Source: a virus
Length of the DNA stretch: 64,000 nt
Virus record (IMG/VR): IMGVR_UViG_3300010885_053065
Span: 1 to 64,000 of that record
Reading direction: 5' to 3' (one strand)
Below are positions 16,872 through 53,118 of this stretch, piece after piece (positions within the stretch are counted from its first letter, which is position 1; each line of letters begins with the position of its first letter). The notes under the pieces were generated by a model, which saw only the letters and a program-made list of their open reading frames with translations, had not been told where the DNA came from and made no database searches. A program made the position numbers and the translations under genes.

Positions 16872-16895
16872 ATTACCTAACACATTATTTGTCAT
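16872..16895 (+). repeat. Degenerate CRISPR-repeat fragment R0
   Basis: 20 of 24 positions match the first 24 positions of the 36-bp repeat of the adjacent array, in the same orientation, after which the match stops. It overlaps the stop codon of the DUF433 gene, so that gene lies between repeat-derived sequences. Confidence 0.65.
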
Positions 16896-17192: not shown

Positions 17193-17512
17193 GTCACCTA
17201 ACACATCACTTGTCATAGCTTTGGTAACATTATTATTAAGGCTTACTTGGTTGACGGTCTTAAACCGTCACCTAACACATCACTTGTCATAGCTTTGGTA
17301 ACACTTTCGCGTAAGACTTACCAGATCTTGTCACCTAACACATCACTTGTCATAGCTTTGGTAACTGCTTTGAGAGGATGCCTTGCTGGTTGAGGTGGTC
17401 AGCTAGTCACCTAACACATCACTTGCCATAGCTTTGGTAACTAACTTAGCCTTATCTACTAACTCGAAAAATCTAGGTCACCTAACACATCACTTGTCAT
17501 AGCTTTGGTAAC
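17193..17512 (+). CRISPR. CRISPR array: five 36-bp repeats, four spacers
   Basis: Repeats at 17193-17228, 17267-17302, 17330-17365, 17406-17441 and 17477-17512 begin GTCACCTAACACATC and end GCTTTGGTAAC. They are identical except for one T-to-C change in repeat 4. Spacers are unique and 38, 27, 40 and 35 nt long, a wider range than in most arrays. The repeat ends form a weak dyad (GTCACC/GGTAAC). The plus strand is the likely transcribed strand because a promoter-like site precedes repeat 1, the downstream hairpins need G-U pairs formed only by the plus-strand RNA, and the anti-repeat then lies 3' of its scaffold as in type V dual guides. No cas1/cas2 is in the window. Confidence 0.92.
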
Positions 17513-17780
17513 CCCTCCTATCCGAAGCCTTGCTATGAGCTGATTACAACACCAGTTTGCGAGGGATAGAGTTTCATTTATTAACATCCAGCAATAAAGT
17601 ATAAACAAAATGGGCGAAAACCTTGCTAGGTAATGTCGCGAGGGATTATAAAGAAACAAGAGTTAGTTACAAAAGGTATGACAAGTTTTGTGTCTTCTCG
17701 CTTTGGAATAATCCTCTACGAATAAAGGCGGTAGGAGCGACCACCTATCAAGTTAATTGACTCGATATATCTATTATAGT
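17513..17780 (+). ncRNA. Candidate tracrRNA with anti-repeat
   Basis: This 268-nt gap between the array and the cas12-like gene contains, at 17666-17693, a segment complementary to the last 28 nt of the CRISPR repeat at 24 positions. Two hairpins precede it: CCTTGC (17528) with GCGAGG (17559), and CCTTGC (17621) with GCGAGG (17638). Both stems need a U-G pair that only plus-strand RNA can form. Scaffold hairpins followed by a 3' anti-repeat is the order in tracrRNAs of type V-B and V-K systems. The ends are unknown. Confidence 0.7.
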
Positions 17781-26543: not shown

Positions 26544-27875
26544 CTACCCGTCGCTCTAGGAGCGCGGGCTTCCAATTTCAATAGGAATAACGTCTAACAA
26601 AACCGAAGTTTTACCAGCCCGACTTACATTCCCTCCATTGGCAGTGTCGCTAGTTCCTAACGACAATAATCGCAAGCCTTCTTCTCTTATGTTTATCGCT
26701 GCATTTATATCTCTATCGTGTTGAGTATGGCAGCTAGGGCACTCCCAATGTCTTACATCTAAGGGCATTTCCGACACTTTGTACAAGCAATTACTACAAG
26801 TCTTAGAGCTAGGAAACCATCTATCTATCTCTAGATAAACCTTTCCTTCTTTCTCTGCTTTGTACTTGAGCATTGTCCCAAACTTACCCCAACTAACATC
26901 ACTAATAGCTTTAGCTAATTTATGGTTGCGTACCATCCCTTTGACATTTAGATTTTCTACGACAATCACTTGGTTATCGTTGACTATCTTGCGAGATAGC
27001 TTGTGTAAAAAATCTTCCCTACAGCGACTTATTTTTGAATGTACTTTAGCTACTAATTTTCTAGCTTTATTTCTTGAGTTACTTCCTTTTTTCTTCCTAT
27101 TAAGTTTCTGTTGCTTCCTCTTAAGGTTCTTCTGATGTTTCTTGAAGTGTTTAGGATTATCGTATTTACTGCCATCACTGGTAATAGCAAAATGATTTAA
27201 TCCTACGTCTATTCCTATAGCTTTCCCTTCGATTATTGTAGTAGTAGAAGATTCTAATCCATTGTCTGTCAGAATAGAAGCAAAGTATTTACCATCTGGA
27301 TTCAGTGAGATAGTTACAGTTTTAATACTGCCCTCTATTGGTCTATGAATCTTACAGTAAATCTCTCCTATCTTAGGAAACTTAATCGCCTCATCTAATA
27401 TAGTTACTCGCTGAGGATAGCTAATAGATTGTTTACCATGCTTGGATTTGAAACTAGGTAAACCCGCACGTTTCTCAAAGAAGTTTTTGTAAGCAGTAGA
27501 TAAATTGAGTGCTACTACTTGGAGACATTGAGAGTAAGCATCAGACAGCCATTCATATTCTTTCTTTAGATTAGGTAATAAACCCTGAATAACTCCTCTT
27601 GATAGACCTTTACCTGTAGTCTTATAGGTTTCCTGACAAAGATTCAAGCTATAGTTCCAATACCACCTTACACATCCAAACGCCTTTGCTAGTTGCGTTT
27701 GCTGTTCATTAGTAGGATAGATTCTGAACTTATAGGCTTTATACATTTATCAGTTTTCTGTATTACTGCTACAAGTCTAGCGCAACAAAAGGAAGATTGC
27801 CAAAGATTCTAGACAATGGTTTGCTGTCAAAATTCATCCCGACGCTTATTAAGCGCGGGACTTCTTTTGGATTGA
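26544..27875 (-). mobile_element. IS200/IS605-family (IS1341-type) element carrying tnpB only
   Basis: About 1.33 kb. Both ends hold similar hairpins: CCCG-CGCTT/AAGCG-CGGG at 27838-27859 and CCCG-CGCTC/GAGCG-CGGG at 26547-26568. The left flank target reads TTAAC. There are no terminal inverted repeats or target duplication and no tnpA, so it would need a transposase in trans. It interrupts a Bro antirepressor gene. Confidence 0.75.
26556..27746 (-). CDS. tnpB: TnpB RNA-guided nuclease, canonical
   Basis: 396 aa with an intact RuvC site (Asp180 in GIDVGLN, Glu264 in VVENLNVKG, Asp346 in DRDINAAINI) and an intact zinc ribbon (Cys317, Cys320, Cys336, Cys339). TnpB proteins use an omega RNA from the 3' end of the element. 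The right-end hairpin at 26547-26568 overlaps the last codons, where that RNA is normally encoded. It serves here as the contrast for the ribbon-less Cas12-like protein at 17781. Confidence 0.92.
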   Translation of the reverse strand: MYKAYKFRIYPTNEQQTQLAKAFGCVRWYWNYSLNLCQETYKTTGKGLSRGVIQGLLPNLKKEYEWLSDAYSQCLQVVALNLSTAYKNFFEKRAGLPSFKSKHGKQSISYPQRVTILDEAIKFPKIGEIYCKIHRPIEGSIKTVTISLNPDGKYFASILTDNGLESSTTTIIEGKAIGIDVGLNHFAITSDGSKYDNPKHFKKHQKNLKRKQQKLNRKKKGSNSRNKARKLVAKVHSKISRCREDFLHKLSRKIVNDNQVIVVENLNVKGMVRNHKLAKAISDVSWGKFGTMLKYKAEKEGKVYLEIDRWFPSSKTCSNCLYKVSEMPLDVRHWECPSCHTQHDRDINAAINIREEGLRLLSLGTSDTANGGNVSRAGKTSVLLDVIPIEIGSPRS

Positions 27876-45273: not shown

Positions 45274-45960
45274 TTAATCAACATCTGATTGGTTGGATTG
45301 AGCAATATAAGAGATTAACTCAAGAAATCTACCACCACGCTTAGTAGATATCAATTGCTCTGTTGAGTGAAAATCTAATACTGAGTAGAGTTTAAATAGA
45401 TTCTGAGATTTGTAGACACCTGATAGTATCTCTGTCTTAGTGCATCCAAGAGACATTAACAGTTCAAAATAACCTAAAAACTCTATTAGCTCTTGTCTAT
45501 TTATAGTAAGTAGATTTATCTCAAAAAGTACAGGAAATATTTCTCTACTATTAGCTTCTTTAGCTAAGAATAAAATATGCTTTTGTCCAGATTCAGCTAT
45601 AGCAATAGTAAAAGGCGGTTCAGGAGGGTTAACAAGCCATTCTCTAATCTGTGGTCTTGTGGGTAAGTCGGTTACTCTATCACCTTCAATCTTAGGGTAA
45701 GACTCTTTCTCTGAAATTAACCAAGACCAACAACGACCAAATAATAGTACTTCTTTTTGACTATGTGGATTATAGTATTTAAGTCTTAGAGGGATAACGT
45801 AATGACAACGATCACATAACTTATCAGAGGTTGGAGACTTAGCTGAACTGTGAGCCGTGAAACTGTCTTTTAGTATTCCTTCTTTAGGTTTGGTGGCAGG
45901 AATTGAACCACAGAGATAGCATGAGTCTTTTATTTTAGTGTCACTAGTCACGTCACTCAC
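45274..45960 (-). CDS. csf1: Csf1-like large subunit of type IV CRISPR-Cas
   Basis: 228 aa. Two CxxC pairs, CYLC (Cys14, Cys17) and CDRC (Cys49, Cys52), frame the segment IPATKPKEGILKDSFTAHSSAK, the pattern of Csf1 (CxLCG ... F.D...A ... CxxC). The rest is alpha/beta without a nuclease motif. Csf1 is the Cas8-like subunit of type IV complexes. The start codon (GTG) lies within a CRISPR-repeat-like sequence, and a truncated copy of its 5' end is found at 47220-47297, so the N-terminus was rebuilt by recombination. It overlaps the upstream gene by 4 nt. Confidence 0.8.
   Translation of the reverse strand: MSDVTSDTKIKDSCYLCGSIPATKPKEGILKDSFTAHSSAKSPTSDKLCDRCHYVIPLRLKYYNPHSQKEVLLFGRCWSWLISEKESYPKIEGDRVTDLPTRPQIREWLVNPPEPPFTIAIAESGQKHILFLAKEANSREIFPVLFEINLLTINRQELIEFLGYFELLMSLGCTKTEILSGVYKSQNLFKLYSVLDFHSTEQLISTKRGGRFLELISYIAQSNQSDVD
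45868..45929. repeat. csf1 5'-end duplication, intact copy
   Basis: 62 bp matching 47233-47294 at 58 positions. It covers the CYLCG zinc-finger codons of csf1. Confidence 0.85.
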
Positions 45961-46046
45961 CTTGGCTTTGGTAATAGTTCTCTTGGAGAGTTGGGAGATT
46001 TGTGTGCTATGTCACTAAACACGACACTTGCCTTGGCTTTGGTAAT
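45940..46046 (+). CRISPR. Degenerate CRISPR unit: repeats D1 and D2 with a 35-nt spacer
   Basis: D1 (45940-45975) and D2 (46011-46046) match each other at 31 of 36 positions and match the array repeat at 17193 at 25 and 28 of 36, in the same plus-strand orientation. The 35-nt gap is a normal spacer length. Both repeats also lie inside coding frames: D1 carries the csf1 start and the end of the 120-aa gene, D2 its C-terminal codons. Confidence 0.7.
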
Positions 46047-46319
46047 ACTAAAATTGTGAACTGCATAAAGAGAAGTGACATCCTCAAAAATGATTTTCTC
46101 TTTAATTTTGAGATCTTCTAGGCTATCGTAATCTACAGGCTCTCCATCTTCGGTGAGCAAGAATATATCCTGAGCGCCTATTCTGAGTGCATAAACTACA
46201 TCAGGACGACTAGGCAGTGAGACGCTGTAAAGGGTATATTGTCCCATACTAATAAGGCTTAAAACAGCATCTGGGAGTTTACTGAGACGACTTTTTGGGA
46301 TGGACGAAGTGGTGATCAT
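45957..46319 (-). CDS. Hypothetical protein ending in CRISPR-repeat sequence (120 aa)
   Basis: 120 aa. The first ~90 residues form an alpha/beta domain of unknown family (YTLYSVSLPSRPDVVYALRIG). The last ~30 residues (ITKAKASVVFSDIAHKSPNSP...) are translated from the degenerate repeats D2 and D1 and their spacer. The native C-terminus was probably replaced when repeat DNA moved in. Overlaps csf1 by 4 nt. Confidence 0.5.
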   Translation of the reverse strand: MITTSSIPKSRLSKLPDAVLSLISMGQYTLYSVSLPSRPDVVYALRIGAQDIFLLTEDGEPVDYDSLEDLKIKEKIIFEDVTSLYAVHNFSITKAKASVVFSDIAHKSPNSPRELLPKPR

Positions 46320-46496
46320 GGCTCTATCCTCTCTTTATTAGCTAATCTCAAAGTTGTAACAGATTACCAACTTGTTACCAAAAGATGATGGTGGCTAAAG
46401 TGAAGTAAATGGGTATTAATGGTTAACTAAGCATTATGCTCAATTTATGGATTACATTCTACCTACAATCTAGCTCACTAAAAATATTTATTTCTG

Positions 46497-46532
46497 GTCA
46501 CTAAACGCGTCACTTACCTTGGCTTTAGCAGT
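46497..46532 (+). repeat. Degenerate CRISPR repeat D3
   Basis: 36 bp, 23 of 36 identical to the array repeat and closer to D2 (shares GTCACTAAAC and CCTTGGCTTT). Lies between two small genes. The flanking stretch 46320-46496 shows no gene. Confidence 0.6.
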
Positions 46533-46546
46533 AGCCTGTCTTTAGT

Positions 46547-46807
46547 TCAAGAGTAGATCAATTCAGCTATTCGTTTTTCCTCAGCCAGAAATTTTAATAA
46601 GTTATCGGGAAGCGGAACAGCTTGTAACTCAATCCAGTACAAACAATGTCTTGGCGCAAATTCTATATCACGATCTGTAGAAGATCCTACGGGAAAGCCA
46701 TTCATGTCTAAATATCTCAACACATCAAACAACTCCTCTTTGTCTTTTGTCCTAAATATCAACTTTGAAGAATTGCGAGGTGACTGCAAATATATTTCAT
46801 ACATCAT
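46547..46807 (-). CDS. Hypothetical protein (86 aa)
   Basis: 86 aa with a compact alpha/beta pattern (MMYEIYLQSPRNSSKLIFRTKDKEELFDVLRYLDMNG). No recognised family. It sits between a degenerate CRISPR repeat and a tnpB remnant, so it may be cargo of the decayed module. Confidence 0.5.
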   Translation of the reverse strand: MMYEIYLQSPRNSSKLIFRTKDKEELFDVLRYLDMNGFPVGSSTDRDIEFAPRHCLYWIELQAVPLPDNLLKFLAEEKRIAELIYS

Positions 46808-46809
46808 TT

Positions 46810-47150
46810 TTACCTTAATAGATGATAAACTTTATTGTTACACAACAAAAAACTTTTACCTATTTTCTCCAAACCTTTATTTAATATGTTGATTGCTGCA
46901 TTTTGATCCCTATCTAAAACACATTGACAGTGTGGGCATTGATGCAGTCTTACACTTAAAAGTTTTGGCACTTTTTCACCGCAACTTGAGCAATTCTGAG
47001 AAGTGTTGTGGGGGTTAACTTCTATTACTTGAACTCCAAACTTAGAAGCTATTTCCTTTAGTCTTAAAACAAAATAACCCCATGCTGCATTAGAAATAGC
47101 TTTAGAAGGATTTTCACAGTAAATTTTTGCATAACAGGATCGGTAGAGCC
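46810..47150 (-). pseudogene. C-terminal remnant of a tnpB gene
   Basis: About 113 codons: YCENPSKAISNAAWGYFVLR ... NPHNTSQNCSSCGEK ... CPHCQCVLDRDQNAAINIL, then a stop. The zinc ribbon and last RuvC motif are kept; the RuvC-I and II parts and the start are missing. The ribbon marks it as ordinary TnpB rather than the Cas12-like type at 17781. It lies in the interval between csf1 and the csf1 5' fragment. Confidence 0.8.
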
Positions 47151-47219
47151 AAAACTTTTTTCATATGACACTCCGATAGTTTTTATTAGCGAGAAATCAA
47201 AAAGCCTAGAGTAATCTAG

Positions 47220-47297
47220 GCTGATAGTGTGGTTTAGTATTCCTTCTTTAGATTTGGTGGCAGGAATCGAACCACAAAGATAGCAAGAGTCTTTCAC
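47220..47297 (-). pseudogene. Truncated csf1 5' end
   Basis: GTG KDSCYLCGSIPATKSKEGIL matches residues 11-30 of Csf1 and then diverges. This is probably the original csf1 start, left behind when the intervening 1.3 kb entered. Confidence 0.75.
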
Positions 47298-47311
47298 GCA
47301 ATCTACAAATA

Positions 47312-47671
47312 TTATTTAAGTTTTTTCTCTATTGTAGTGGTGATGGTCTGATTGATAATCATAAGCTCTTTCTTGTTTTCGGTAATAGTTATAGTATGTT
47401 TGGTATCTTCTCTTACAGAATTTACTTCTGTATCATCTCTATTGGTATTAATAACTTTTTTAGAATAATCTACATCATACTCAATTCTTTTTATGTTGCA
47501 TGTTTTAGGTTGTAAATTACAACTGGGTTGAATACTGGTAGAGCATCTATTTAAATTTGATATTTTGCAAGCTGGCGTGTTTTTAAGAGTCTCAAGATCT
47601 TCTGCTAGCACACTATTTGTATTTACTTCTAATGCAATAAAAAGTAATAAAATAAACAATGAAATACGCAT
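47312..47671 (-). CDS. Secreted Cys-containing protein (119 aa)
   Basis: A clear signal peptide (MRISLFILLLFIALEVNTNSVLA, cleavage near residue 23) is followed by a ~95-aa extracytoplasmic domain with four Cys (ACKIS, RCST, SCNL, TCNI) and Thr/Asn-rich strands. An exported protein within a CRISPR-Cas operon is unexpected. It may be an unrelated lysogenic-conversion gene. Confidence 0.6.
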   Translation of the reverse strand: MRISLFILLLFIALEVNTNSVLAEDLETLKNTPACKISNLNRCSTSIQPSCNLQPKTCNIKRIEYDVDYSKKVINTNRDDTEVNSVREDTKHTITITENKKELMIINQTITTTIEKKLK

Positions 47672-47789
47672 AAGTTAAACCCCTGTTTCTTTATGATTTA
47701 TTAATATTTTAACAACAAAATATAGTTTTCTGTATACACTTTTCATTGTTTTAAGATATTCTCGTTTTATATTTAATAGTTCCGATAAT

Positions 47790-48374
47790 TTAAACAAACA
47801 CTCCACAACCTAACTTGTGTTTACCGCCAATACCTGACACTTGAAGCTTAATAGAATCTTCTTTACTTAAGTTAAATGCTTTAGCTTTAAACCCTACTAC
47901 AGTATAATTCCTCTCACTTCTTGGGATGCGTATTGTCAGTCTTTCTAATACTTCAATATCTGCTTTAATCTCTAACTTATCTAGTTGTTTATCTGCTGCT
48001 ATTTTAAATAGCTCTGGAGTGACAGCATTCTTGATTACAACCAATCTAGCTATTAACTCTGTTTTACCTTCTAGCATCCTATATAAAGGGTTTCCTAGCC
48101 TTATTTGGTAGCGCATTATCTTAAGGTTAGAGTCTTTAAGTTTAGTAAATAACTTGGCGTTATCTATAGTTGTTCTGATTAACAAAGTAGATTTATCTGT
48201 TAATTTAATCTCTCCATTGTTGTTAGGGAGTCCAGTTATTGTGTTAATAAAAACTTCCTCTAGACTATGGAGTTCTTGTATTTTTGAACACAAAGCAGAG
48301 TATAGATAATAATTATGGTCAGCATAGAGAGACTGACCATAAACAGGGAATAGAATATCAACAAATTGAGACAA
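47790..48374 (-). CDS. cas6: Cas6 family endoribonuclease, Cmx6-like
   Basis: 194 aa. The N-terminal VDILFPVYGQSLYADHNYYLYSAL and C-terminal SGIGGKHKLGCGVFV (181-194) are the characteristic ends of Cmx6/Cas6: an RRM-type start and the glycine-rich loop. Cas6 cleaves CRISPR repeat RNA to make crRNAs. Type IV-B loci normally lack cas6, so its presence suggests this complex can be loaded with processed guides, perhaps from repeats of the D/R family. A catalytic His cannot be assigned with confidence. Confidence 0.8.
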   Translation of the reverse strand: MSQFVDILFPVYGQSLYADHNYYLYSALCSKIQELHSLEEVFINTITGLPNNNGEIKLTDKSTLLIRTTIDNAKLFTKLKDSNLKIMRYQIRLGNPLYRMLEGKTELIARLVVIKNAVTPELFKIAADKQLDKLEIKADIEVLERLTIRIPRSERNYTVVGFKAKAFNLSKEDSIKLQVSGIGGKHKLGCGVFV

Positions 48375-48393
48375 GTTAAATTAATTTCTCCAG

Positions 48394-49161
48394 TTACTGT
48401 AGAGACAAACTAACCAAGTTAAGTTTGTCTCTAGTCTCGTTCAAATCTTTTTCTATGTAATCTGAGACTGGAAAATCACTAAAAATATCAACAGAGTTTA
48501 CTCCTATATTCCAAGCTTTAACAATGCGCTCAGTTTTAAAATAATCAACTCCTTGTGCTTCTAAAAATATCTGTAGTTGCTCCAACAATAGAATAGGAGG
48601 ATTGCAGCGATTTATCATTCCTTCTTCAAAAGCAATTATTTCTAGTTCTCCTTGTACTGTAGTAGGAACATCTAGTAATATATGGTGAAAATCATGAACC
48701 AAGATATAGCTAGACGGAAACATTGATGGTTTATCTACTGTTGCTACGTTTCCATTATTTTGATAATACTGGTGTAGAGCATATCCTACTGTTCCCTTCT
48801 TACAAAAAGGAAGTTTTTTAAAAAGTTTTATATTTTCTGGGTTAGGAGTTAATGATTCTAAGAAATAGCTTTTGAGTCCAATTAATTTATCTTTTAAAGA
48901 CATAAAAGGCAATATTTTTGGCATTGTTTGTGTCCTTAAAGTACAAGTTGGTCTTACGTATTCAAACCTTATTCGGCTAAAGATCTGCCATAAATTAGCA
49001 GAAGTAACACCTAGTAAATTAACTGGTGTCAGTAAACTTACTACATCGATTTCTGGTTTAACTAATTTAATAATTTCTTCTCTATTTTCTGCTTGAATAA
49101 TTCGATTAAATAGATTATTATCGGTCAAAACTTGTTCAAGAAAATTAAGTTCAACAGTCAT
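48394..49161 (-). CDS. Coq4-family protein in CRISPR operon
   Basis: 255 aa with the Coq4 metal-site signature HDxxHx11E seen exactly: His156, Asp157, His160, Glu172 in LVHDFHHILLDVPTTVQGE. Coq4 acts in ubiquinone synthesis in eukaryotes and some bacteria, but cyanobacteria use plastoquinone, so another role is likely. It overlaps cysH by 11 nt, which ties it to the CRISPR operon. Confidence 0.75.
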   Translation of the reverse strand: MTVELNFLEQVLTDNNLFNRIIQAENREEIIKLVKPEIDVVSLLTPVNLLGVTSANLWQIFSRIRFEYVRPTCTLRTQTMPKILPFMSLKDKLIGLKSYFLESLTPNPENIKLFKKLPFCKKGTVGYALHQYYQNNGNVATVDKPSMFPSSYILVHDFHHILLDVPTTVQGELEIIAFEEGMINRCNPPILLLEQLQIFLEAQGVDYFKTERIVKAWNIGVNSVDIFSDFPVSDYIEKDLNETRDKLNLVSLSLQ

Positions 49162-49882
49162 AAAATGCCTCAGTTACATTCTGTTTTAAATATGAGTATA
49201 ACATAGGATTAAATCGCTTCATGTTCTCTAAAGAGGTTTTCTGTAAGGATTTGTTTTTGTTAGCAGAATACCAATAATTAGCATGAGCATTGGTTCTACT
49301 TGTTTTACGGTCTAATTTGTCATACAAGTCCAAGTAAGGAATATCATAATAAAAAAGATAAGCCCAAACATCCTGCCATGACCACCATGCAAGAGGACAT
49401 ACTCTATAGTATCCTTTATGTTTTCCTGTTTGGTATTGATGAATTAACCCGTATTTTTTTAGAGATCTTCTTCTATTAATACTTTCTTCTGCTCTTAGCC
49501 CAACAAAAGCCACACTGTAATCAACTACTGCATTTATCCTGTCTTGGACTGTATCAGAAGTAGCAGCATTCTCTTTTTGAGCTTTAATATCTAAATACTT
49601 AGTTGGAAATTTCTCACAATACCTAGAGATTGTTTCCGAGTAATTAGAAACATAATCTTGCTCTATTGAGCTATAACAAACTGCAGCAATATCAGGTTTA
49701 ATTTGTTGGCAAAGGTGCAACATTACGGTTGAATCTTTGCCCCAACTAATAGCTACATAAGAGTCACCAATCTCTAGAGCTTCAGAAATTATTTGCTTGG
49801 ATTTCTCTACTCTTTTTTTAAAGCTATCTAGTAGCGCATAACCTCTATAGGCTTGATATTCTGGATCATCTTTTAAAAGCAA
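49151..49882 (-). CDS. cysH: CysH-like protein of type IV-B CRISPR-Cas
   Basis: 243 aa PP-loop ATPase/PAPS-reductase-fold protein: ISWGKDSTVML (45-55) is the nucleotide loop and VGLRAEESINRRRSL the substrate-site motif shared with PAPS reductase and DndC. cysH-like genes are the established accessory partner of type IV-B loci; their function is unresolved. It lies 3 bp from the csf3-like gene. Confidence 0.85.
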   Translation of the reverse strand: MLLKDDPEYQAYRGYALLDSFKKRVEKSKQIISEALEIGDSYVAISWGKDSTVMLHLCQQIKPDIAAVCYSSIEQDYVSNYSETISRYCEKFPTKYLDIKAQKENAATSDTVQDRINAVVDYSVAFVGLRAEESINRRRSLKKYGLIHQYQTGKHKGYYRVCPLAWWSWQDVWAYLFYYDIPYLDLYDKLDRKTSRTNAHANYWYSANKNKSLQKTSLENMKRFNPMLYSYLKQNVTEAFYDC

Positions 49883-49885
49883 CTG

Positions 49886-50584
49886 TCAATTAGCATTGGT
49901 TTTTAACCTAGGCTTCTCCTTAATCTGTCTTACATTGTCTTTTGGTATATAACACAGTACTTGATTCTGATGCATCCATGATGGTGTTTTCCAAGCCACA
50001 ACCATCATGTCATGCACCTCTAAATCTAGTTGCTGTGCCATCTCTAAAGGAATTGGTCTTGTGACACGTCTTTCTTTCTCAAACGACCAGTCATAGTCAA
50101 TTTCTTTAACTGACCACTCAGAGACATAAGCAAAGCCGTAGGATCTCTTTTTCCCTAAGTGAGTAACTGTAGATAGAGCTAACTTTATCTGCTCTTTATC
50201 TCCTACTACAAACCAGTCAATCCTTTCAGTAAGCTTCAAGAATAGAGGTAGATCATAAGACTTGAATTGACCATCTGAGCCAGAAAACTTAGCCTTCTTC
50301 TTACCCCAATCAAGATGCTCACTTTGATAATCCCACCGTTTTCTATATCTATCAGTACTCTCTATAGAGTATAAGTAGTGAGGACTAGAAGCTTGATAGA
50401 AACCTAGTTCATGCTTTTTAATTGGTAACTCAATCTCAGTTAAAGTCTCAAAGGTTACGTTAGTGTCAAGTCTACCAGTTGATTCTCTAACTGAGTACTC
50501 TATTATCCCTGTGATATCAGGAGAAAGATTGTCTGTTACAGCAATAGGTCTAGCTAGATTAGCTGTTATTTGTAAAGGAATCAT
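49886..50584 (-). CDS. csf3: Csf3 (Cas5-like) subunit
   Basis: 232 aa. An N-terminal RAMP-type strand (MIPLQITANLARPIAVTDN) and a glycine-containing GKKRSYGFAYVSEW loop near the middle fit Csf3, the Cas5-like subunit that caps the crRNA 5' handle. Gene order next to cysH and csf2 supports it. Overlaps the upstream gene by 4 nt. Confidence 0.75.
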   Translation of the reverse strand: MIPLQITANLARPIAVTDNLSPDITGIIEYSVRESTGRLDTNVTFETLTEIELPIKKHELGFYQASSPHYLYSIESTDRYRKRWDYQSEHLDWGKKKAKFSGSDGQFKSYDLPLFLKLTERIDWFVVGDKEQIKLALSTVTHLGKKRSYGFAYVSEWSVKEIDYDWSFEKERRVTRPIPLEMAQQLDLEVHDMMVVAWKTPSWMHQNQVLCYIPKDNVRQIKEKPRLKTNAN

Positions 50585-51144
50585 GGCTTACTTAAATCCA
50601 ATTGATTACAAAGTTTATCTATTACCAAGTGATAAACAGTACCACTAGAGCCAGACTCATGTGTGTTAATTAATAGTTCAACTAAAGCAAAAAAACTTAA
50701 AGGTCCTTGAAGCGTTACGTCCAACTGCAAAGAAGAAATAACATTTTTTATCTTCTCAGCAAGAACGTTTAGTAGACACTTTTTAATCGAGATTCTTGAT
50801 GGCTCAAAAAGATGTACTGATAGATAAATATAGGCAGCAACTAGGTCAATTAGTGAGTGTTCTTCTGACTCAATATCAGTTGCTTCTGTTGTGGATAATA
50901 CTGATTCAATTGTTGTCATTTCTACCTGATTAATTATTTCTATTTGTTGTGATTCTTCTATTTTATCAATTGTCTCTTCTTGCTCAGTAATCCCAATACC
51001 GTGCTCATTTAGATATTTCAAATACCAATTACGCATCGTTTTAGGAGGAACCAAAGGGAAATCTTTATAAAGTCTTCTAGGTTGACTTCCATTTCTAAAC
51101 CTATTTAATATCTCTGACTTGTACTTGTCTCCTCTACTAGCCAT
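50581..51144 (-). CDS. TerS-like HTH fused to a helical (Cas11-like) domain
   Basis: 187 aa. Residues 1-50 (RGDKYKSEILNRFRNG ... LVPPKTMRNWYLKYLNE) are a close relative of the HTH in the phage terminase small subunit at 25213. After an acidic linker (~50-95), residues ~95-187 are all helical (LVAAYIYLSVHLFEP ... CLLNVLAEKIKNVI), the size and character of a Cas11 small subunit of type IV-B. The Cas11 assignment rests on position and fold type only. Confidence 0.6.
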   Translation of the reverse strand: MASRGDKYKSEILNRFRNGSQPRRLYKDFPLVPPKTMRNWYLKYLNEHGIGITEQEETIDKIEESQQIEIINQVEMTTIESVLSTTEATDIESEEHSLIDLVAAYIYLSVHLFEPSRISIKKCLLNVLAEKIKNVISSLQLDVTLQGPLSFFALVELLINTHESGSSGTVYHLVIDKLCNQLDLSKP

Positions 51145-52307
51145 TATCCAAATACTCCCTTGATTTCACTGTTATTACTTTTAATAAACTCTCGATAATC
51201 AGCCAGATAAGATTTATATCTCTCTTGCTGTAGACTAGCTCTACTTTCTAATACTTGATGTCCATCTTTAATTGATATCCAACTACCTGCTTCTTCTCCA
51301 CTAGAGTAATAAATCTCTACAGCAACTCTACCGAAACCTGTATTACTCATCCCTCCTAAATAAGGATTCTCTGCCCAATTGCTAATAGCATCAGCTATAA
51401 ACCCTTCCTCAATATCAGTAACGTTAGCATCCCACCGAGAGTAGAGTTTTGCTCCTTGCTGTATTAACCATGCACCCATAATCATTTGATTAGACTTTTG
51501 TTTCTCTTCTTTTTTCTCTGTACTATCTCCAAATAAAGATTGTTGTCCTTCTTTAGATGCAGCAGGCAATAAGTACTTAACAAGAGAAGGATCATGGTGT
51601 GAGTCCATTCTTACCTTTTGGTTATAGGTTAACCAGTGTGGGTAAGGTCTGAGAATCTCTTGTAGGTAGGGTAGCCAATACTTTAGAGTTTCTTTGTAGC
51701 TAGTATCGTCTAGCGTCTGTTCTCTCTTAAAGAGGAAATTAGAGACTCTTGTTTCCTCTAAATCTTTTTTAGCTTGAGAGATAGCTTTTAACCCCTCTAA
51801 AGCAGCTGCAGGTAAAGCAGGTTGAAATATTTGAAACTGATTTAAGGCTGACTCGTAACAAATAAGCATTGCATCGCCAACATTAATCCGACCTGGAATC
51901 ATTTGAGCATCTTTACCACCAAAGACTCCTTTAGGTTTAGCTGTTCCTAGTACTGATATAGGAGGTAAAAACTGTCTTATCTTTTTATCAAGCTCTAGAT
52001 CATTAGCTGTACCACCATCAATTGCACCACCACAGAACAAAGTATGATGCAAGATTGGAGATACCTGTATCCCTAGTTCACTTAAGAAAGAATCGACTCC
52101 TACACGTCTTAATATTCTGTTCCTTAGTGCGTTACCTGAGAGACAAAATACTTGGCTAGGATTGCCTTCTATATCGGTTATAGCTAGAGTTTTGAGGTTA
52201 GCTTGATTGCCTACTGATTCTCCAATATGGGATAGAGGTGACAAAGTTTCTATTACTAAGTGAAAAGTAATTCTGTGGCGTTGGTTCGGGTTGTAATTAT
52301 TTGGCAT
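51144..52307 (-). CDS. csf2: Csf2 (Cas7-like backbone) subunit
   Basis: 387 aa. An RRM-like start HRITFHLVIETLSPLSHIGESVGNQ and VFCLSGNALRNRILRRVG are typical of Csf2/Cas7 of type IV; the C-terminal GGMSNTGFGRVAVEIYY supplies the final glycine-rich element. Csf2 polymerises along the guide RNA to form the complex backbone. Overlaps the TerS-HTH gene by one base. Confidence 0.85.
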   Translation of the reverse strand: MPNNYNPNQRHRITFHLVIETLSPLSHIGESVGNQANLKTLAITDIEGNPSQVFCLSGNALRNRILRRVGVDSFLSELGIQVSPILHHTLFCGGAIDGGTANDLELDKKIRQFLPPISVLGTAKPKGVFGGKDAQMIPGRINVGDAMLICYESALNQFQIFQPALPAAALEGLKAISQAKKDLEETRVSNFLFKREQTLDDTSYKETLKYWLPYLQEILRPYPHWLTYNQKVRMDSHHDPSLVKYLLPAASKEGQQSLFGDSTEKKEEKQKSNQMIMGAWLIQQGAKLYSRWDANVTDIEEGFIADAISNWAENPYLGGMSNTGFGRVAVEIYYSSGEEAGSWISIKDGHQVLESRASLQQERYKSYLADYREFIKSNNSEIKGVFG

Positions 52308-52616
52308 TTAACTATTAATTATCTCCTCTTCATCTGGATAAACCTTTGTGGTCTTTTCACTTACGTAATAAATTTCAAGATTTGGACAAAGAGACAATAT
52401 TTTGTCTGACTCTTCTTGTCGTCTTTGTTTTTCATACTCAATCATTTTATCTATTAACAATTCTTCATCTTTTTCTTGATGAGCGTCTACAAGGAACTTA
52501 GCTACTTTATCTAAATTTCTACTTATTTCATTGGGATTATTACAATCAATAGACTCTACAAACAATCGTCCTGCATCATCTGGAGTCAACTTCTCTATCG
52601 CCTTTTTAGACATCAA
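52308..52616 (-). CDS. Hypothetical helical protein (102 aa)
   Basis: 102 aa, charged and helical with a C-terminal acidic strand (VSEKTTKVYPDEEEIINS). Tightly packed between csf2 and the 170-aa gene (11-nt overlap). Unknown; possibly a regulator or subunit of the CRISPR complex. Confidence 0.55.
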   Translation of the reverse strand: MMSKKAIEKLTPDDAGRLFVESIDCNNPNEISRNLDKVAKFLVDAHQEKDEELLIDKMIEYEKQRRQEESDKILSLCPNLEIYYVSEKTTKVYPDEEEIINS

Positions 52617-53118
52617 TTACATCCTCATCTTCTTGTTTATTGAGCCATAAAGCTTTATCTTCTTCATGTTTTAAGCGAACATATAAAGCGACAATTTGTG
52701 ACTTTTCTAGACACTGTCTTAATACGGCTCTATCGGTTATTCCAAACTGAATAGACCACCGTTTTATTATATCTTCCCAAGATTCCCACACTAAAGACTG
52801 ATCTGAGTCAATCTGTTGTATTTCTCCTACATTTCCATCCTCAGCTTTAGCTGCTCTTAAAATTACTTGTTGAGGTTGAACTAATCTAGTCCACTCTTTA
52901 GGTTTAAGTGTTGGAACAACCAATCTTTTAGAGAGATAGTGAATATAGTCGTTTAAGTTTCTAGAGGGAATAGCAGCATTTTCTATTGATGTTTGAACAT
53001 ACTCCCAAGTCTTAATTCCGTTAGCAGGAGAACGTTGTTTGTCACGGCATCTAAATACCCAATAAGTTAAGGCGCTAGCTAAAGCTATTGGTTTGTCTTC
53101 TGTATTAATTCCTAACAA
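52606..53118 (-). CDS. Hypothetical helical protein of CRISPR operon (170 aa)
   Basis: 170 aa, mostly helical with conserved-looking aromatic and charged blocks (ALTYWVFRCRDKQRSPANGIKTWEY; DRAVLRQCLEKSQIVALYVRL). It could be an alternative Cas11-type small subunit. It overlaps both neighbours. Confidence 0.5.
   Translation of the reverse strand: MLGINTEDKPIALASALTYWVFRCRDKQRSPANGIKTWEYVQTSIENAAIPSRNLNDYIHYLSKRLVVPTLKPKEWTRLVQPQQVILRAAKAEDGNVGEIQQIDSDQSLVWESWEDIIKRWSIQFGITDRAVLRQCLEKSQIVALYVRLKHEEDKALWLNKQEDEDVIDV

Follow-up and report, generated by a model that had tools for sequence, protein, structure and literature searches.

Degenerate repeats beside a Cas6-bearing type IV-B-like operon on a phage contig: a probable remnant of a second TnpB-type array

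Three degenerate repeats (D1, D2 and D3) are located between cas6 and csf1 of a type IV CRISPR operon on a viral contig, which also carries an array of related repeats (R) next to a TnpB-like effector. The D repeats are probably the remnant of a second array of the TnpB/V-U type, sister to the R array. They most likely make no working guide at present, since neither a matched tracrRNA nor an effector of their own accompanies them. Were D functional, a single repeat family would be shared by a class 1 and a class 2 system, which is rarely seen; even as a relic, it indicates that arrays of the TnpB type are mobile and subject to decay in such phages. Of greater use is the finding that IV-B-like operons with a cas6 are encountered repeatedly on these elements while lacking their own array, which makes the RNA substrate of Cas6 a direct question.

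The window, i.e. the whole stretch of DNA that was analysed, covers positions 1-64,000 of a viral contig of 89,719 bases, which may be an incomplete genome. Phage genes are present on it, namely a Bro-N antirepressor, an integrase-like gene, a putative terminase and tail genes, and the nearest published parallel of the phage is a cyanophage. Two CRISPR loci are found in the window: the R array with its TnpB-like effector, and the type IV operon (45274-53118, - strand). Their features are listed in Table 1.

Table 1. Positions in the window of the two CRISPR loci, the D repeats and the neighbouring genes.
Feature	Positions	Strand	Remarks
R array	17193..17512	-	Five 36-nt repeats; spacers of 38, 27, 40 and 35 nt
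R antirepeat, putative tracrRNA	17666..17693	-	24/28; between R array and effector
TnpB-like/type V-U-like effector, 467 aa	17781..19184	-	
csf1, type IV Cas8-like large subunit	45274..45960	-	Predicted start codon inside D1
D1 repeat	45940..45975	-	ATTACCAAAGCCAAGGTGAGTGACGTGACTAGTGAC on the - strand; overlaps csf1 5' end and ORF120 3' end
ORF120	45957..46319	-	C-terminus is translated D2-spacer-D1
D1-D2 spacer, 35 nt	45976..46010	-	
D2 repeat	46011..46046	-	Closest to R; encodes ORF120 from residue 92 on
D3 repeat	46497..46532	-	Just downstream of the 86-aa ORF stop codon
86-aa ORF	46547..46807	-	Between D3 and TnpB fragment
TnpB C-terminal fragment	46813..47106	-	Ordinary zinc-finger type
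csf1 5' duplicate, 73 bp	47222..47294	-	89% to 45858-45930; truncated after ~24 codons
cas6, Cmx6 type	47790..48374	-	E 7e-51; looks intact
Coq4-like protein	48394..49161	-	Conserved in several operon relatives
CysH-like gene	49151..49882	-	Marker of subtype IV-B
csf3, type IV Cas5	49886..50584	-	
csf2, type IV Cas7	51144..52307	-	
cas11, type IV small subunit	52606..53118	-	

The matches of D1, D2 and D3 to the type V repeat R amount to 25, 28 and 24 of 36 positions, and all three share the + strand sense with R, as reported in the initial annotation apart from D3, for which 23 had been given. Among themselves the copies match at 31/36 (D1-D2), 29/36 (D1-D3) and 30/36 (D2-D3) positions, colinearly across the 36 positions. 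The range expected by chance was obtained from 60 first-order shuffles of the 64 kb, searched on both strands, in which the best match to R was 21-24/36. D2 is far beyond this range and the D-D matches also exceed chance; D1 and D3, borderline on their own, gain significance from their likeness to D2 (blastn E values of 2e-6 and 1e-4). The exact D1-D2 period of 71 (36+35) agrees with the single regular repeat-spacer unit described at the outset, and the D1-D2 pattern occurred in none of 100 shuffles. An array is defined by two or more similar repeats with unlike spacers of regular length between them; D1-D2 conforms to this definition as one true unit, with D3 standing 486 nt away, outside it; the near-identity of repeats in a CRISPR array is absent, the copies differing mutually at 5-7 of 36 positions. 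A degenerate tandem-repeat scan of the window and of positions 64001-89719 returned no CRISPR-like tandem other than the R array and D1-D2.

At positions 6, 7, 13, 21, 23, 25 and 36 the three D copies agree mutually and differ from R, and each copy carries only 2-4 private changes relative to the D consensus, GTCACTAAACACGTCACTTACCTTGGCTTTGGTAAT. Judged by their sequences, D and R form one repeat superfamily, and the single family proposed earlier holds in that sense. Since the seven differences from R are fixed in all three copies, D appears to be a sister family of its own and not a decayed copy of R; the ancestral array would already have had its own repeat, which has since become worn. A stray R half-repeat (19/21 positions; 16875-16895, - strand) lies some 300 bp away from the R array, indicating that fragments of this repeat family scatter.

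On the - strand, the order of the elements surrounding D is cas6, ORF119, the csf1 5' duplicate, the TnpB fragment, the 86-aa ORF, D3, ORF120, D2, the spacer, D1 and csf1. Residues 7-89 of ORF120 weakly match (E 0.003) phrog_30138, a phage family of 101 aa, and the repeat unit is read through immediately afterwards. In relatives csf1 starts 2-8 codons before the CYLCG motif; in this phage only an extended start is available, further upstream, within the repeat. The D1-D2 unit is therefore placed inside ORF120 and the csf1 start instead of in non-coding DNA. From these overlaps and neighbours it follows that the D repeats occupy junctions, D3 being separated from D2 by an ORF cassette. The TnpB fragment matches at 44% the TnpB at 26556-27746 and at 40% the type V-like effector. 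The sister array probably reached the cas6-csf1 site together with mobile-element debris (the broken TnpB, the csf1 5' duplicate and small ORF cassettes), and phage genes would then have been joined onto it, with the ORF cassette inserted between D3 and D2 and csf1 starting inside D1. As csf1 is distant from the remaining type IV operon in several relatives (G007, G008; L060 9989-10654, L034 6303-6959), its flank can be regarded as a rearranged part of the locus.

The suggestion that one system supplied a usable array to the other is not supported in such a setting, D being inside two coding sequences, amid mobile-element debris, and D-like repeats being absent from 22 viral relatives in the stretches read. 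Some observations count against a relic. A zinc finger, lost in the R effector, is retained in the TnpB fragment, which may thus be doubtful as the former partner of D; some pairing between D2 and the R antirepeat persists (-19.3 kcal/mol) and the spacing of D1 and D2 is exactly 36+35. Moreover, the searches yielded no D array in intact form, so that the sister array is one that we infer.

At the R locus, the match of the antirepeat to the repeat was above all 300 shuffles, and the predicted R-antirepeat duplex is strong (-30.3 kcal/mol, z -7.1). Effector, antirepeat and R array would all be read on the - strand, as expected if a TnpB guide RNA had been divided into a tracr part and an array. 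The effector apparently retains three RuvC motifs and has lost the zinc-finger cysteines. It scores 131 bits against the NCBIfam C2c8 model, below the cutoff of 350 for type V-U2, and 187 against the general TnpB model, above the cutoff of 100; a search of viral contigs with this protein returned no close relative. That type V variants arose repeatedly from TnpB is established (PMC12669027).

A comparable locus is that of the Aphanizomenon phage vB_AphaS-CL131 (CL131, MG209611), assigned to type V-U2 (C2c8) (PMC6293099). Both loci have 36-nt repeats, unevenly long spacers and no reported cas1 or cas2, and in both the array adjoins a TnpB-like effector on a cyanophage, with an antirepeat in between. 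The CL131 locus was published as lacking a tracrRNA (PMC6293099); its antirepeat (18/21, L030 4962-4982), located between array and effector, was above all 1000 shuffles. CL131, of which 8 kb were compared, differs by its unrelated repeat sequence and by an effector that is only 29% identical.

The pairing of D with the R antirepeat is at the level of chance for D1 (z -0.3) and weak for D2 (z -2.8) and D3 (z -1.7). No antirepeat was found near D; a candidate near 46375-46403 was rejected as not above chance. D does not have the pairing with an antirepeat in its own locus that a substrate of the effector would display, and on account of its poor pairing with the R antirepeat it would serve the R effector badly as a guide scaffold. 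The sharing of crRNAs between the type IV and type V systems, put forward initially, is therefore not supported: D belongs to a sister family, pairs poorly with the antirepeat and has none of its own.

Degenerate regulatory repeats are known from other CRISPR types. D2-spacer-D1, with its two diverged repeats around one spacer, resembles them and might accordingly act as a regulatory mini-array, a guard of the CreR/CreA type whose guides would be used by the effector to repress ORF120, csf1 or another gene. The partial pairing of D2 with the R antirepeat would fit this role. We consider it unlikely, as the pairing of D1 is not above chance, the spacer has no above-chance match in the phage itself (best 21/35) and nothing comparable is observed in relatives. 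The spacer is also without a match in viral contigs (20-nt core), phages or plasmids, and no protospacer was found in them.

The assignment of the adjoining operon to type IV with a cas6 was confirmed. All five genes of type IV-B (csf1, csf2, csf3, cas11 and the CysH-like gene) are present; IV-B is said to lack cas6 (PMC8175902), whereas this operon has a cas6 of the Cmx6 type and the D repeats beside csf1, and no working array of its own was found. Relatives of Csf2, 49-71% identical, were retrieved from 22 viral loci (5 in a first search), 12 of which carry cas6; the CysH-like gene is present in most and the Coq4-like gene in several. The retention of cas6 in the operon across relatives implies that Cas6 should have an RNA substrate.

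D could itself be the crRNA source of the type IV system, cut by the Cas6 of the operon and loaded onto Csf2. It is located within the operon, on the same strand, adjoining csf1, and the Cmx6-family cas6 looks intact; no other array accompanies type IV-B, for which the scavenging of crRNAs has long been hypothesised (PMC8175902). The cas6-bearing relatives are devoid of D or R repeats in the stretches read, cutting within D1 would sever the csf1 start, and D provides a single spacer without a known target. Furthermore, the folds of the D RNAs are weak and inconsistent (roughly -3 to -6 kcal/mol); they have no hairpin in common, and a GAAAC-type handle is absent. Unstructured repeats do serve as substrate for some Cas6 proteins. 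On balance, such a role for D is improbable.

Guide-scavenging and guide-sponging have been proposed for type IV-B (PMC8175902). In line with these ideas, the type IV complex and Cas6 of this phage probably take their guide RNAs in trans, and host pre-crRNA or other arrays would be the simplest source, because an array is missing from most relatives. A broader proposal holds that IV-B complexes with a Cas6, on the mobile elements of cyanobacteria, obtain crRNAs from other arrays in trans and that in this phage the D mini-unit, of TnpB-type CRISPR origin, acts as a guide of this sort, so that a class 1 complex would be connected with a class 2 repeat family; taken as a whole, it is very improbable.

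A comparably low probability is assigned to the view that the R array itself was copied to the D site by recombination within the phage and then decayed. The common superfamily and strand sense and the 28/36 of D2 would fit such an origin, which is disfavoured by the seven shared fixed differences against two to four private ones, pointing to a distinct ancestor or to a long-separate history. Chance likeness, or an element of another kind such as a regulatory motif or a transposon end, would accommodate D1 and D3 when taken alone, at the edge of the 21-24 range, but is hardly credible given the score of D2, the 29-31 matches between copies, their colinearity over 36 positions, the same strand and the regular spacing.

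The remnant of a sister array thus remains our preferred reading, and the D family was sought in public collections by means of exact degenerate patterns and distant blastn. The 32-nt D/R pattern had no match in viral contigs; a 21-nt core gave two matches in genomes and one in viral contigs, all of them single, outside arrays and at about chance level. Distant blastn of both regions against phages returned chance matches only, a search for a close sister phage via ORF120 and the terminase found none, and a Csf2 search of genome contigs gave no match. The contigs of twelve relatives were read whole or nearly whole, for a total of ~1 Mb with overlaps included. No D/R-like repeat reached 24/36 in these stretches, although the records nearest to the window may lie outside the collections. 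The array of CL131, used as a positive control, was detected by the same repeat scan. Relatives with an intact D array, which had been named as a check, were not encountered among the 22 viral relatives in the stretches read.

The company of IV-B and type V systems is not unheard of, since an Actinomyces plasmid carries IV-B, a mini-array and a V-B3 system that is inactivated (PMC12669027, Extended Data Fig. 7). The plasmid is similar to the phage in that a single mobile element combines IV-B, type V and a mini-array. On the plasmid, it is the type V variant to which the mini-array belongs; in this phage, the RuvC motifs of the effector look intact and D is degenerate. The Gloeobacter morelensis plasmid pGMOR1 (NZ_CP063846) bears a type IV operon (L071 12001-16458) which resembles that of the phage by its CysH-like gene and its Cmx6-type cas6, and differs in that the 25 kb examined contain neither D or R repeats nor any array.

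Among the contigs of the relatives, an array was found on G001 alone, a contig with a type IV operon and cas6. It comprises two clusters of 36-nt repeats, GTTGCAAATAGGTTAAGAAGGCAACAGGTTGGAAAC, unrelated to D or R. The clusters flank an IscB gene (RRXRR and HNH domains) on both sides (L047 11019-14450), and the attribution of this array to the type IV system was dropped for that reason; its transcripts may nevertheless be processed by Cas6. The G001 repeats are CRISPR-like, with a GTTGC/GCAAC stem. Finally, several type IV operons besides that of the phage (L010, L013, L015 and L024) have a Coq4-like gene with cas6 on one side and the CysH-like gene on the other.
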